DNA from: Anaerostipes butyraticus | GTDB lineage: Bacteria; Bacillota; Clostridia; Lachnospirales; Lachnospiraceae | Assembly: GCF_016586355.1 (NCBI RefSeq) | Contig: NZ_BLYI01000023.1 | Span: forward strand, 1 to 64,000 | DNA: 64,000 nucleotides | Reading direction: 5' to 3' | Notes under the pieces: generated by a model | Databases searched by the model: none | The model's input: the letters and a program-made list of their open reading frames with translations, nothing else | What the model was told of the DNA's origin: nothing | In this document: positions 14,885-18,772 of the stretch, piece by piece | How positions within the stretch are numbered: the first letter of the stretch is position 1 | Layout of the letters: each line of letters opens with the position of its first letter | Made by a program: the position numbers and the translations under genes

Positions 14885-14920
14885 TTTATATCATCCAACT
14901 AAAATTAAGTCAAGTTGGAT
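14885..14920 (-). promoter_or_regulatory. prs promoter with inverted repeat
   Basis: On the reverse strand TTGACT (14913-14908), 17 bp and TATAAA (14890-14885) form a good promoter; its -35 box touches the dnaI stop codon. ATCCAACT (14893-14900) and AGTTGGAT (14913-14920) form an 8-bp perfect dyad spanning the -35 box and spacer, a possible operator. Confidence 0.65.
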
Positions 14921-15891
14921 TTCTTAAAACGGATGTCATCTCCGTATATTTTATGCCAGGAATAATGTTCAATAATTCGGGAAAAGATTCGTTCAGAATA
15001 GATGTCCCGAAATTCTTTGACAGACAGATTCGTTGAAATGATTGTGGATTTCTCCCGGATCAAACGTTCATTGAGGCAGTGAAATAACTGGGAAACGACA
15101 AATTTGTTTACCATCTCCGTTCCAAGGTCGTCAATGATCAGAAGATCACACTGGAAAATCATATTCAGCGAGCGTTCTGTATCCTCTTCCTTTTCTCTCT
15201 GAAAGGTGTGCTTTGCAAGGTAATCAAACAGCTGAAATGCTGTTGTATAAACGCATGTATAACCTTTATCCATGATTTCTTTGGCAATGCAGTGGCTCAG
15301 AAACGTTTTTCCTACGCCTGTGGATCCTTGAAACAGAATGTTTTCATGATTTGGAAAACGTTCAAGAAAGCCGCGGCAGTGCTGCAGGATCTTCCGAATA
15401 TTTGCTCTTGGGCTGGGAAGTCCGTCAGGCATCATCTGGTCAGAATAATAATCTTCACGAAATGTCTGAAAATTTTCCCTCTCCAGGAGCCGTTCCATAT
15501 TCGAATTGGAATACAGCAGATTAATGACAGCCTGCTGAAAACACCGGCATCTTTTTTGTCCGATGTATCCGGTATCTTTGCATTGGGTACAATGATAGAT
15601 TGGTTCCAGATAATCAGAAGGATATCCGTGTTCTGTCAGAAGATGTTTCTTCTCCTGGGCAATCCGGTGATTTTCCTCTTTGCATTTTGAAGCAAGAGAG
15701 GGATCGTCACCGGCAATCAGTCTTTTGCCCAGTGCGACAGAATTAGCCGCGATCTGTCGGTCCAGATCGCGGATTTTAGGAATCTTCTGATATATTTCTT
15801 TTTTTCGCTGTTCATGCAGATGATAATTGGAAAGTCTTCGATCTTCATACATCTGCATAATTTTTTGATATTCAAAATTAGATAAGGACAT
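14905..15891 (-). CDS. dnaI: DnaI/DnaC-type helicase loader ATPase
   Basis: The 328-residue AAA+ protein loads replicative helicase DnaB onto DNA. After an N-terminal helical region it has a zinc-site-like cluster HCTQCKDTGYIGQKRCRC (about 97-115), then Walker A GSTGVGKTFLSHC, Walker B LLIIDDLGTE and the sensor segment TIISTNLSVKEF. Cys-rich linker and length fit Gram-positive DnaI. It starts 3 bp after the dnaD stop with its ribosome site (GGGAGAA) inside the dnaD tail, so the two are cotranscribed, as in other Firmicutes where DnaD and DnaI act in the same primosome. Confidence 0.92.
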   Translation of the reverse strand: MSLSNFEYQKIMQMYEDRRLSNYHLHEQRKKEIYQKIPKIRDLDRQIAANSVALGKRLIAGDDPSLASKCKEENHRIAQEKKHLLTEHGYPSDYLEPIYHCTQCKDTGYIGQKRCRCFQQAVINLLYSNSNMERLLERENFQTFREDYYSDQMMPDGLPSPRANIRKILQHCRGFLERFPNHENILFQGSTGVGKTFLSHCIAKEIMDKGYTCVYTTAFQLFDYLAKHTFQREKEEDTERSLNMIFQCDLLIIDDLGTEMVNKFVVSQLFHCLNERLIREKSTIISTNLSVKEFRDIYSERIFSRIIEHYSWHKIYGDDIRFKKSNLT

Positions 15892-15894
15892 AGA

Positions 15895-16956
15895 TTAATT
15901 CTCCCTGATTTCATCGGAAAATTGTTTTTTAAGAAGCTGTTCTTCCAAAGCGTCAAAATCATAATCACGCTGCTTAAAGTTATGTACAGGCTGAGAAGCG
16001 TTGGCGTTCATAAAAGTCTTTGGTGATTTCTGACGCTGATAAAAACTTTTGGCCTGTTCCACGGTTCTGATATGATTATCTTTCCACTGTTTCAGGATTG
16101 TATCCGCATAAGGAAAGCTTGGCTTGTTGATCGCATTGATGGTGCGGTTGCAGGCCTCAATGATCAGAGAAAGATCAAACGCGTCTTTCTCAAGCCATTG
16201 CTTCATGTACTGTTCCTGAATTGGCGCAGGATTCTGGTTCAGTCCAAACGCACGCATAATGGAATAATATTCTTTTTTAAAGTTTTTGCTGTGCGCTTTG
16301 GCCTCATCGACAGTTGTAATGTTTTCCTCATACCAGTTGATCGCAACTGTCTGCATATATCGGAAACTCTTCTTGCCATTGGAAACACAGTGCTCTACCA
16401 GATATTCGATCAGTTCACAGGACATGGAGAGATCTTCATATAGATACAGAAGAATGTTCATGTCTGAGCAGGTAAGCGGTTTTCCGATAAACATCTCACA
16501 TACATAGAGAAGATAGGAGAAACGTTCATCTTCACTCTTCTTCTGGAGTTCAGAAGGAGAAAGTGTCTTCATGGCAGGAATCGCTTCAGCTCCTGAAATG
16601 GAAGATTCTTCTGCGGAAGATGCAGGGGAAGAATCTTCGGTTTCTAAAACGGGCTTTGCGTGTCCCGGAACCGGAAGCAGTTCGATGGACTGAATCTCAC
16701 CGTGATTCTGTGAAATCTTTAAAAGAGATTCTTTCTCCCAGTATTTCAGTGCGCGGGCAACATCCCTCTCCGTAAGTTCCAGCACATCCGCAAGACATGG
16801 AATACTGAAATTGGCTCCCTCAGATACCATACGGAGAAGATAAATATAAACTTTTATGTATTCTCCGTTCGCTCTTATCATATAATGATCTACAAATGCA
16901 TTCGGAAGCAGTGTTCCGCCGGTCGGATATGTGGTTACGACTTTAATATAATTCAT
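15895..16956 (-). CDS. dnaD: DnaD-domain replication initiation protein
   Basis: The 353-residue protein has an N-terminal winged-helix-like region (about 15-90; ERDVARALKYWEKESLLKIS), a Ser/Glu linker, and two C-terminal DnaD/DnaB2-type domains: LTCSDMNILLYLYEDLSMSCELIEYLVEHC and, further on, FDLSLIIEACNRTINAINKPSFPYADTILKQW, where the YADxILKxW signature is the family hallmark. DnaD proteins bind and remodel origin DNA and help load the helicase. It heads the dnaD-dnaI operon on the reverse strand, transcribed from a promoter that abuts a dense DnaA-box cluster. Transcription initiation may therefore answer to DnaA. Confidence 0.9.
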   Translation of the reverse strand: MNYIKVVTTYPTGGTLLPNAFVDHYMIRANGEYIKVYIYLLRMVSEGANFSIPCLADVLELTERDVARALKYWEKESLLKISQNHGEIQSIELLPVPGHAKPVLETEDSSPASSAEESSISGAEAIPAMKTLSPSELQKKSEDERFSYLLYVCEMFIGKPLTCSDMNILLYLYEDLSMSCELIEYLVEHCVSNGKKSFRYMQTVAINWYEENITTVDEAKAHSKNFKKEYYSIMRAFGLNQNPAPIQEQYMKQWLEKDAFDLSLIIEACNRTINAINKPSFPYADTILKQWKDNHIRTVEQAKSFYQRQKSPKTFMNANASQPVHNFKQRDYDFDALEEQLLKKQFSDEIREN

Positions 16957-16988
16957 GGCATGTTCCCCTTTCTTCTAATCTAATTCTG

Positions 16989-17017
16989 ACTATAACCCAG
17001 ATAAATCAAAATGTAAA
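16989..17017 (-). promoter_or_regulatory. Promoter of dnaD-dnaI
   Basis: Reverse-strand TTTACA (17017-17012), 17 bp, TATAGT (16994-16989). It sits immediately downstream, in the direction of transcription, of the DnaA-box cluster. Confidence 0.65.
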
Positions 17018-17025
17018 TAGGCGGA

Positions 17026-17201
17026 GAATCCACACGAAAATTGTGGAAAAGCCTGTGGATAATGTGGATAATGTGGATAATAAATCCAAAATAACGAGAA
17101 TAAGCCATTTACATAGATTTTACAATTGTGGAAAAGAGAAAAAGAAATCCACAGGTTTTCGAATACAAAAATGTGCATAAACCTGTGGATAATGTGGATA
17201 A
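17026..17201. promoter_or_regulatory. DnaA-box cluster between murC and dnaD
   Basis: Five perfect DnaA boxes occur, read as TTATCCACA on the reverse strand: 17054-17062, 17063-17071 and 17072-17080 abut in tandem at 9-bp period, and 17184-17192 and 17193-17201 form a second tandem pair ending next to the murC stop codon. Near-matches are TGTGGAAAA (17042-17050 and 17127-17135), TGTGCATAA (17172-17180), AAATCCACA (17145-17153) and GAATCCACA (17026-17034). The ~100 bp between the two perfect groups is AT-rich. All perfect boxes have one orientation. Confidence 0.88.
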
Positions 17202-18587
17202 CTATTTTTTCAGGAGAGAATTTCCGATAGAATCGACATTTCCGGCTCCCATAGTTATCAACAGATCATTTTCTTTACAATTTTTTAAAATAAATTTTTC
17301 AATATCCTCAAAACTGCTGATATAGTGGACATCTACATCATAAGCAGACATTTTATCCACAATATCTCTTGCATGTACCAGCCCCGTATCTTTTTCACGG
17401 GCTGCGTAGATGTCAGTGATAATCACATGATCGCTCAGACTCAGAGCCTTGGCAAAATCATCCAGGAATGCCTTGGTTCTGGTATAAGTGTGAGGCTGGA
17501 AAATACACCACAGCTCTTCATGCGGATAATTTTTGCAGGCTTCCAGGGTTGCGCGGATTTCTGTCGGATGGTGGGCATAGTCATCGATGATCGTAAATCC
17601 ATGGACCTTTCCTTTGTATTCGAAGCGGCGTTTGGCTCCGGAGAAAGAAAGAAGTCCTTTTTTTACTGCCTCCATCGGAAGATTTAAACGGTCCGCGACA
17701 GCGATTGCCGCAAGTGCGTTATTAACATTATGATCCCCTGTTACATTGAGCTGAATGCGGTCCTGATATACGCCGTTTTTATAGTAATCAAAGGAATCAT
17801 GTCCAAATGCGTCATGTGTGATGTTGTCAGCAGCGAAGTTAAAACGGCTGCGGTCAACGCCAAATGTTACATAGTCGGCTTCCAGTCCATCCGTAATATA
17901 AGAAATATTATCGATCTCACCATTGATCACAAGATATCCGTAATCTGGCAGCTTGTGAGCAAAGGCGCGGAAAGATTTCCTGATATCATCAATATCTTTG
18001 AAGAAATCCATGTGATCTTCTTCAATATTCAAAATAATGCTGATCTTTGGGAAGAACTCAAGGAAACTGTTGGTATATTCGCAGGCTTCTGTGATAAAAG
18101 TATCAGAGTGCCCTACACGGATATTTCCGCCGATAGATTCCAGAATACCTCCGACACTGATCGTAGGGTCGGTGTCTGCTTCTAGGAGAATCTGAGACAG
18201 CATGGAAGTTGTCGTTGTTTTTCCATGGGTTCCGGATACAGCGATCGCGTTCTTATAGTTATGCATCAGCTGACCGAGAAGAGCAGCCCGGCTCATGACA
18301 GGAATGCCTTTCTTGACCGCTTCTTTGTATTCTTCGTTAGTGTCAAAACTGATTGCGGCGGTATAAACAACGAGATCAATATCAGAAGTAATGTTGTCAG
18401 CGGTCTGCTGATAAAAAATCTTAGCGCCCTTTTCCTCCAGATGGTCTGTGATCGGGGAACGATGGATATCGGAACCGGACACGGTAAAGCCTTCCTTTAT
18501 GAGGATTTCAGCAAGTCCGCTCATACTGATGCCTCCGATGCCCATAAAATGAATGTGGATTGGATGATGAAAATCTATCTGATACAT
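17202..18587 (-). CDS. murC: UDP-N-acetylmuramate--L-alanine ligase MurC
   Basis: The enzyme adds L-Ala to UDP-MurNAc in the cytosol, the first peptide step of peptidoglycan precursor synthesis. The 461-residue protein shows the UDP-binding HFMGIGGISMSGLAEIL, the ATP loop AVSGTHGKTTTTSM, EACEYTNSFL, the NxEEDHMDFF motif, GDHNVNNALAAIA and DDYAHHPTEI with the catalytic His region. A longer in-frame reading to 18770 adds a hydrophobic stretch foreign to the family, so the ATG at 18587, preceded by GAAAGGA, is used. It has its own promoter and no visible terminator; its stop codon abuts the last DnaA box. Confidence 0.96.
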   Translation of the reverse strand: MYQIDFHHPIHIHFMGIGGISMSGLAEILIKEGFTVSGSDIHRSPITDHLEEKGAKIFYQQTADNITSDIDLVVYTAAISFDTNEEYKEAVKKGIPVMSRAALLGQLMHNYKNAIAVSGTHGKTTTTSMLSQILLEADTDPTISVGGILESIGGNIRVGHSDTFITEACEYTNSFLEFFPKISIILNIEEDHMDFFKDIDDIRKSFRAFAHKLPDYGYLVINGEIDNISYITDGLEADYVTFGVDRSRFNFAADNITHDAFGHDSFDYYKNGVYQDRIQLNVTGDHNVNNALAAIAVADRLNLPMEAVKKGLLSFSGAKRRFEYKGKVHGFTIIDDYAHHPTEIRATLEACKNYPHEELWCIFQPHTYTRTKAFLDDFAKALSLSDHVIITDIYAAREKDTGLVHARDIVDKMSAYDVDVHYISSFEDIEKFILKNCKENDLLITMGAGNVDSIGNSLLKK

Positions 18588-18663
18588 AATGGTTATGTCC
18601 TTTCTATAATAATTTGTAGGAGTTTTCCGACGCTTTTTCCGGCAGAAAACTATGTTTTTCCTT

Positions 18664-18692
18664 ATTATAAGGCACGGACATGTTTCTTGCAA
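18664..18692 (-). promoter_or_regulatory. Promoter of murC
   Basis: Reverse-strand TTGCAA (18692-18687), 17 bp, TATAAT (18669-18664), leaving a leader of about 70 nt. The 323-bp gap 18588-18910 holds this and the spoVG promoters and otherwise only AT-rich DNA. Confidence 0.7.
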
Positions 18693-18772
18693 GGCACAGA
18701 ATGAAATGAAAAATGACAGAAAAAACAAATATTCAAAAATATGGTAAAATGTAATAATATTTATTAACAAAT

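Follow-up and report, generated by a model that had tools for sequence, protein, structure and literature searches.

In model bacteria, the replication initiator DnaA controls its own gene together with a scatter of others. According to the accessible parts of the published accounts, DnaA of Bacillus subtilis acts as a transcription factor that activates sda and apparently represses ywlC, vpr, trmE-noc and other targets (PMC4447404). The locus described here, an array of DnaA boxes in front of the dnaD-dnaI genes of Anaerostipes butyraticus, shares with that regulon the placement of DnaA at promoters outside oriC (PMC4447404), binding being predicted in our case, and differs from it in that the accessible text of that work does not name dnaD as a target. 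In Escherichia coli, DnaA prefers directly repeated boxes 2–3 bp apart (PMC11317965), and the 'double DnaA box' sites at purH, polA, nrdA and mioC are, like our array, direct pairs. The 12-bp step of the array (a 3-bp gap) falls within the preferred range, whereas its dominant 9-bp step (a 0-bp gap) falls outside it, and the array further differs in being made of two modules of several boxes. B. subtilis also carries DBCs, dense clusters outside oriC comparable to the one reported here; initiation occurs early when six of them are removed (reviewed in PMC5295017). Unlike these, the present array is tied to one promoter in both position and direction.

Two further systems touch on particular parts of the locus, again as far as the partial text of the sources goes. 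DnaA-dependent attenuation has been proposed for the E. coli his operon, with DnaA acting on leader RNA and with two mismatches per box (PMC10989985). There, as here, box sequences are associated with a terminator-like RNA structure, whereas our hairpin follows a gene and has near-perfect DNA boxes at its base. Upstream of dnaD itself, a WalR ChIP peak is described in Staphylococcus aureus, where a reporter, itself of very low activity, showed no regulation (PMC10746227). DnaD of B. subtilis inhibits cooperative DnaA binding (PMC4447404), so that a loop leading from DnaA to dnaD would close on itself. Our literature search, which most subscription papers fell outside, returned no paper on DnaA boxes in Lachnospiraceae and, in the literature on dnaD promoters or operons with DnaA and on DnaA with terminators, no earlier report of the present arrangement. 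Promoter control by a DnaA-box cluster is, as a kind, already known; new relative to the literature searched are the dnaD target, the abutting geometry at a set promoter distance and the overlap with a probable terminator.

The window, that is, the whole stretch of DNA analysed, comprises 64,000 nucleotides. Its murC-dnaD gap is 245 bp long (positions 16957–17201) and holds ten DnaA boxes: five perfect copies of TTATCCACA and three one-mismatch boxes, all on the minus strand, and two inverted boxes with two mismatches (Table 1). Motif scans thereby reproduced the preliminary description of five perfect boxes, arranged as an abutting triplet and an abutting pair, with about five weaker ones around them, and its statement that all perfect boxes of the gap point in the direction of dnaD. 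Read in the direction of transcription, the distal module runs box-9-box-12-TTATGCACA, followed by an inverted box and then by TTTTCCACA, while the proximal module runs box-9-box-9-box-12-TTTTCCACA, followed by a weak inverted box and the promoter. Pfam assignments agree with the gene names (Mur ligase for murC, DnaB_2 for dnaD, IstB/DnaA-type ATPase for dnaI), and, against GTDB contigs, DnaD identity was 90% to Candidatus Anaerostipes avistercoris, 88% to Candidatus Anaerostipes excrementavium and 74% to Anaerostipes sp. MSJ-23.

Table 1. Features of the murC-dnaD-dnaI region (window coordinates)
Feature	Position	Strand	Basis
dnaI-like helicase loader ATPase, Pfam IstB/DnaA-type ATPase	14905..15891	-	
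dnaD, Pfam DnaB_2	15895..16956	-	
Predicted sigma-A-type promoter of dnaD-dnaI, TTTACA-17-TATAGT	16989..17017	-	promoter scan and genus conservation
Inverted two-mismatch box, between array and -35	17026..17034	+	
Proximal module, one-mismatch box TTTTCCACA, 12 bp past box 3	17042..17050	-	
Proximal module, DnaA box 3, perfect, abutting	17054..17062	-	
Proximal module, DnaA box 2, perfect, abutting	17063..17071	-	
Proximal module, DnaA box 1, perfect; start 63 bp ahead of -35	17072..17080	-	
One-mismatch box TTTTCCACA, retained in 11/11 genus genomes	17127..17135	-	
T-rich run after hairpin	17131..17146	-	
Inverted box, two mismatches, 3' arm of hairpin	17145..17153	+	
Hairpin ATCCACAGGTTT...AAACCTGTGGAT formed from two DnaA boxes; probable intrinsic terminator of murC	17147..17190	-	fold and family covariation
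Distal module, box TTATGCACA, one mismatch, 12 bp past box 2 (3-bp gap)	17172..17180	-	
Distal module, DnaA box 2, perfect, abuts box 1; ATCCACA forms 5' arm of hairpin	17184..17192	-	
Distal module, DnaA box 1, perfect, right after murC stop	17193..17201	-	motif scan, genus conservation
murC, upstream gene, stop abuts array; Pfam Mur ligase	17202..18770	-	

In total, six perfect boxes were found in the window against 0.58 expected, a number reached by none of 100 shuffles, and when the gap was resampled 20,000 times under a first-order Markov model, no resample contained more than two. Chance origin of the array is ruled out by these window shuffles and the resampling of the gap. The whole genome contains 52 perfect boxes versus 8 occurrences of the reversed word; the gap is the densest cluster among the 52, and it accounts for three of the four perfect abutting pairs in the genome (the triplet counting as two).

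Some other motifs lie in or near the gap. murC contains the sixth perfect box of the window, at 17353 on the plus strand. Approximately -310 from dnaD, at the coding end of murC, a TTATCAACA box of the opposite strand is present in all 11 genus genomes and in many of 40 family genomes; its conservation is probably that of the codons. Between the two modules (17100–17125, minus strand) there is a TGTAAA-N5-TGTAAA direct repeat, kept or nearly kept only in a close clade of the genus.

Both modules of the array were retained in 11 of 11 genus genomes. In the genus alignment, mean pairwise identity was 0.885 in box columns (55 of 72 invariant), compared with 0.538 in other columns (18 of 146 invariant), with values of 0.843 for the inverted weak boxes and 0.985 for the -35 and -10 columns. 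The box mask was shifted circularly 247 times, and no shift reached the observed contrast between box and other columns.

Enrichment of boxes upstream of dnaD extended well beyond the genus. Across 31 of 35 named loci (genus loci L095–L098 being left out), 78 perfect boxes fell in the 15.1 kb upstream of dnaD and only 32 in 526 kb elsewhere, and part of the latter were clusters more than 450 bp upstream of dnaD, e.g. in L100 and L106. The reversed word occurred 0 and 4 times, respectively, in the same sequences, and 26 of the 31 loci had at least one perfect box upstream of dnaD. Of 40 further family genomes, 32 carried a perfect box within 600 bp upstream of dnaD and eight carried none, while 26 of 40 had a 9-bp tandem (at most one mismatch) in the same interval; perfect boxes numbered 78 there, versus one for the reversed word. 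Successive boxes in the same direction were most often 9 bp apart (53 times), followed by 12 bp (6 times). Outside the family but within the order, a perfect box was present in five of nine loci (9 of 16 such families sampled); of the four without one, one ends at a contig end. By contrast, no perfect box lay upstream of dnaD in any of 40 class genomes from other orders (up to 600 bp, less in L224, which reaches a contig end). These 40 family and 40 class genomes were hand-picked down ranked match lists, with a match near the N-terminus required, and are not a random draw. Perfect abutting pairs anywhere in the genome were found in 89 of 150 family genomes, compared with 12 of 113 genomes from other orders of the class.

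The box counts within and outside the order mark the array as a Lachnospirales trait that has been lost or weakened in some lineages; a feature common to the whole class was considered and rejected on the 0/40 result. A tandem pair was likewise absent upstream of dnaD from 30 of 126 loci, and taken with the eight family genomes and the four loci from other families of the order, this indicates that some lineages can do without the array or carry it in weakened form. Comparison of the gap across Lachnospiraceae thus finds the boxes conserved, in an element whose complexity goes beyond, and whose conservation goes far beyond, what the window alone could show.

Orientation and gene linkage were followed through perfect abutting pairs. 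Among the 150 pairs listed from 150 family genomes (84 of the 89 matching genomes, a triplet counting as two pairs), 83 lay 0–1000 bp upstream of a dnaD match, in 58 genomes and with the window's own three pairs included. All 83 listed pairs pointed in the direction of dnaD, the position of which was taken from the best-scoring match stretch and in some genomes starts within the gene; the reversed pair pattern had no match in the 150 family genomes. Predicted ORFs separate murC from dnaD in L099, L100 and L115, and 1.4 kb of unexamined sequence does so in L105. The box cluster stays on the dnaD side in all four separated loci, and the idea that the boxes belong to murC was rejected for that reason.

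In L099, L100, L105 and L106, two repeats (CCCCTATATCTTGCAA ... CCCCTAAATG) lie right upstream of the DnaA boxes. We take these to resemble NrdR boxes, in which case dnaD may be co-regulated with nucleotide reduction.

The predicted promoter has its -35 element at 17017–17012 and its -10 element at 16994–16989. An automatic promoter scan was not significant by itself, with two hits against 2.7 expected on shuffling. Across 11 genomes, however, 11 of 12 hexamer positions were invariant, and the good dnaD-dnaI promoter noted beside the array in the preliminary description is supported by conservation. The proximal boxes start at -63/-54 from the -35 element in 9 of 11 genus genomes and at -62/-53 in the remaining two, despite a variable leader. 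Outside the genus, where 69 loci with a tandem pair 60–260 nt from dnaD were surveyed (some sharing a genus), promoters of the chosen score were predicted in 44 of 69 real sequences against 0.11 per shuffled one. Of these 44, 27 lay 34–37 or 43–47 bp past the proximal tandem, compared with 7.7% in shuffled downstream sequence; the genus values and a first distance list were already known when these distance windows were chosen, and the promoters are predictions. Stricter promoter scores gave 17 of 26 (shuffles 8.4%) and 14 of 21 (shuffles 4.3%) within the same windows. The two distance classes differ by the length of one 9-bp box.

Taken as marks of a DnaA-regulated promoter, consensus boxes in or upstream of a promoter in excess of chance, conservation of the boxes with the gene across species, and a position set relative to the predicted promoter (in windows chosen post hoc) are all found at this locus. 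From this arrangement we infer occupancy of the array by DnaA, and we regard it as probable, on comparative sequence evidence, that DnaA controls the dnaD-dnaI promoter through the array, whichever the sign. The suggestion in the preliminary description that DnaA governs the supply of helicase-loading proteins is accordingly the one best borne out, with conserved boxes, 83 co-directed listed pairs, a set distance to -35 and boxes that follow dnaD speaking for it. A point against such control is the near-consensus sequence of the dnaD promoter here, which may do without an activator.

The same description had also proposed titration. In this reading the cluster, in the manner of the B. subtilis DBCs close to oriC, would soak up DnaA near the origin and delay re-initiation, its place before dnaD being incidental. 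This is the densest perfect-box cluster of the genome and, in the three closed (single-contig) genus genomes, the positions are about 0.4 kb for dnaA and about 50–80 kb for dnaD, both of which suit a titration site. In three other single-contig family genomes, however, dnaA and dnaD are 238 kb (G035), approximately 287 kb (G046) and 518 kb (G085) apart. G046 has two perfect pairs upstream of dnaD and G085 a single perfect box, and the weak array in the distant G085 would again fit titration, in a comparison of three genomes only. Pure titration needs neither direction nor promoter distance, for which reason promoter control was ranked above it, nor does it need the array to remain with dnaD once murC has been separated. 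As the main function, titration therefore seems unlikely, since the promoter geometry is not explained by it; it may persist as a side effect of control. A site of the datA/DARS type, inactivating or reactivating DnaA by acting on its nucleotide state, would likewise consist of closely spaced boxes clustered outside oriC, but the promoter-related position and the linkage to dnaD make this very improbable.

As for how DnaA would control the promoter, it is expected to bind cooperatively, forming a head-to-tail oligomer along boxes at 9- or 12-bp spacing. Upstream activators touch RNA polymerase, and DnaA on boxes beginning 33–63 bp ahead of -35 could do so in the same manner, so that the proximal set, at its set distance, would activate from an upstream site, and the supply of helicase-loading proteins would be matched to the level of the initiator or to its nucleotide state. 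The distal set would act over a longer distance; in roughly half of the loci examined it would also provide the stem of a probable murC terminator insulating dnaD from murC. Activation is the likeliest sign because the proximal boxes cover neither -35 nor -10, and we put it forward tentatively. Repression, with a filament spreading from the boxes over the promoter in a negative loop, appears a somewhat less likely form of the same control. A set distance between array and promoter would suit it too, an inverted weak box lies close to -35, and several B. subtilis operons are apparently repressed by DnaA, as far as the accessible text goes (PMC4447404); against it, none of the 11 genus genomes had a forward box with at most one mismatch over the -35 or the -10 element.

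A second aspect concerns the distal module. RNA pairing between distal box 2 and the inverted box was estimated at -19.5 kcal/mol (z = -6.6), with none of 200 shuffles as stable, and in the window this hairpin and its T-run directly follow murC. Our terminator scan, with a loop limit of 3–8, found none in the window. Among 126 loci, 96 had the tandem pair, and 65 of these also had an inverted arm 10–60 nt further on (54 of them outside the genus). In those 54 loci, pairing continued beyond the box-defined arms for a mean of 3.83 bases versus 0.98 in shuffles (largest of 2000: 1.69), the shuffles taking no account of relatedness between loci. At the first position beyond the arms, all four Watson-Crick combinations were represented in the 65 loci (26, 18, 10 and 3 times), which points to a stem kept by compensatory change, with relatedness likewise uncontrolled in the shuffles. 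At least seven T's in the next 12 bases followed the hairpin in 42 of the 54 loci, and 51 of 130 loci, genus duplicates included, passed a stricter screen that required a stem of 9 or more and 10 or more T's in 18. From these features we infer terminator activity: the distal half of the array forms, in about half of the loci, a hairpin that is often followed by T's and is probably the terminator of murC. The arm-to-arm distance was 29–31 in 51 of the 54 loci, a constancy beyond the needs of a terminator that is perhaps due to a constraint at the DNA level.

Could the element then be a murC terminator and nothing else, its likeness to DnaA boxes being accidental? The strong hairpin with its T's, covarying in the family, is what such a terminator would look like. 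It would leave aside the proximal triplet, which lies outside the hairpin, and the 31 of 126 loci with a tandem pair and no inverted arm. In addition, our script found no hairpin with a T-run at the dnaD clusters of L099, L100 and L115, and those of L105 and L106 form weak hairpins only (-6.2 and -3.4 kcal/mol), boxes being kept in all five, while L106 and L115 have a box-free terminator-like hairpin after murC. No convincing terminator after murC was found by script in L099 and L100, so that the terminator and box roles are clearly separated only in L106 and L115. With these loci in view, a terminator alone is scarcely credible, and promoter control by DnaA, with a probable terminator built into the distal module in about half of the loci, remains our preferred reading.

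The preliminary description had further raised the idea that the array is part of an origin; it would then be a second origin or a detached part of oriC. Boxes are dense here and the helicase-loader genes adjoin them. In the A. butyraticus genome itself, dnaA is on a different contig from murC-dnaD. GC skew, computed for four stretches of the closed genome G154 and the left side of G157, ranged from -0.205 to -0.27 to the left of dnaA in G154 and was positive to its right, whereas over the 4 kb containing dnaD it dipped to -0.008 and became positive again with no lasting flip. In the window, skew was approximately zero at 14–18 kb (0.002 and 0.014) and positive on both sides; the genes there run the other way. 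The longest AT-only run, a crude measure, was 9 bp in the gap versus 17 bp in the genome's own dnaA-dnaN gap (oriC2), and the longest ([CT]TA)n run, examined as a sign of DnaA-trios, was six bases in both (TTATTA and CTACTA, respectively), an equality that fits either reading. Neither a GC-skew switch nor an AT-rich unwinding element was thus found at the gap. With the skew flipping at dnaA, which weighed most, and the AT-only run short, the array is extremely unlikely to be an origin, the least probable of the readings considered, and that part of the preliminary description was dropped.

Box pairs also occur at a second gene. Of the other 67 listed pairs, 33 lay within 1 kb upstream of hpf, encoding a ribosome hibernation factor, in 28 genomes, and all 33 pointed in the direction of hpf. 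In A. butyraticus the element consists of a weak box-12-box-9-box in the hpf direction (L131:8692–8775; G000 C46), and the same element was seen in L183–L186, L188, L189, L191, L193, L195, L197 and L199, the loci read being those of its own genome and 11 of 20 places. The weaker box 12 bp before the hpf pair was present in all 12 of these loci, with at most two mismatches in 11 and three in L197. Where a promoter was predicted at hpf (10 of 12 loci), its distance from the pair ranged over 86–295 bp; a fixed distance was looked for and not found, so that a fixed geometry of array and promoter is not general. The literature found for the hpf site does not mention a 'DnaA box'.

Other perfect pairs were placed by eye beside trmB-like, NlpC/P60-like or other secreted-protein genes (L187, L192, L194, L196, L198, L200 and L201), and one family genome had four perfect abutting box pairs around dnaA (L182; G105 C133).

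A broader proposal would be that DnaA of Lachnospirales is a small global regulator of dnaD-dnaI and hpf, acting via a shared element with 9- and 12-bp steps, and that a DnaA-gated terminator in addition sets read-through from murC into dnaD. We consider this speculative and quite unlikely. If true, the gated terminator would link wall synthesis to replication, and DnaA would couple initiation both to the supply of helicase loader and to ribosome hibernation.

A terminator stem built of initiator boxes would be an unusual double use of sequence, and the abutting 9-bp geometry offers a ready test of how a DnaA oligomer is seated on double-stranded DNA. Lachnospiraceae are a major group of human gut bacteria, and a link from the initiator to the helicase loader, kept across much of this family and fixed in position, would constitute a feed-forward or feedback loop in the control of replication initiation.
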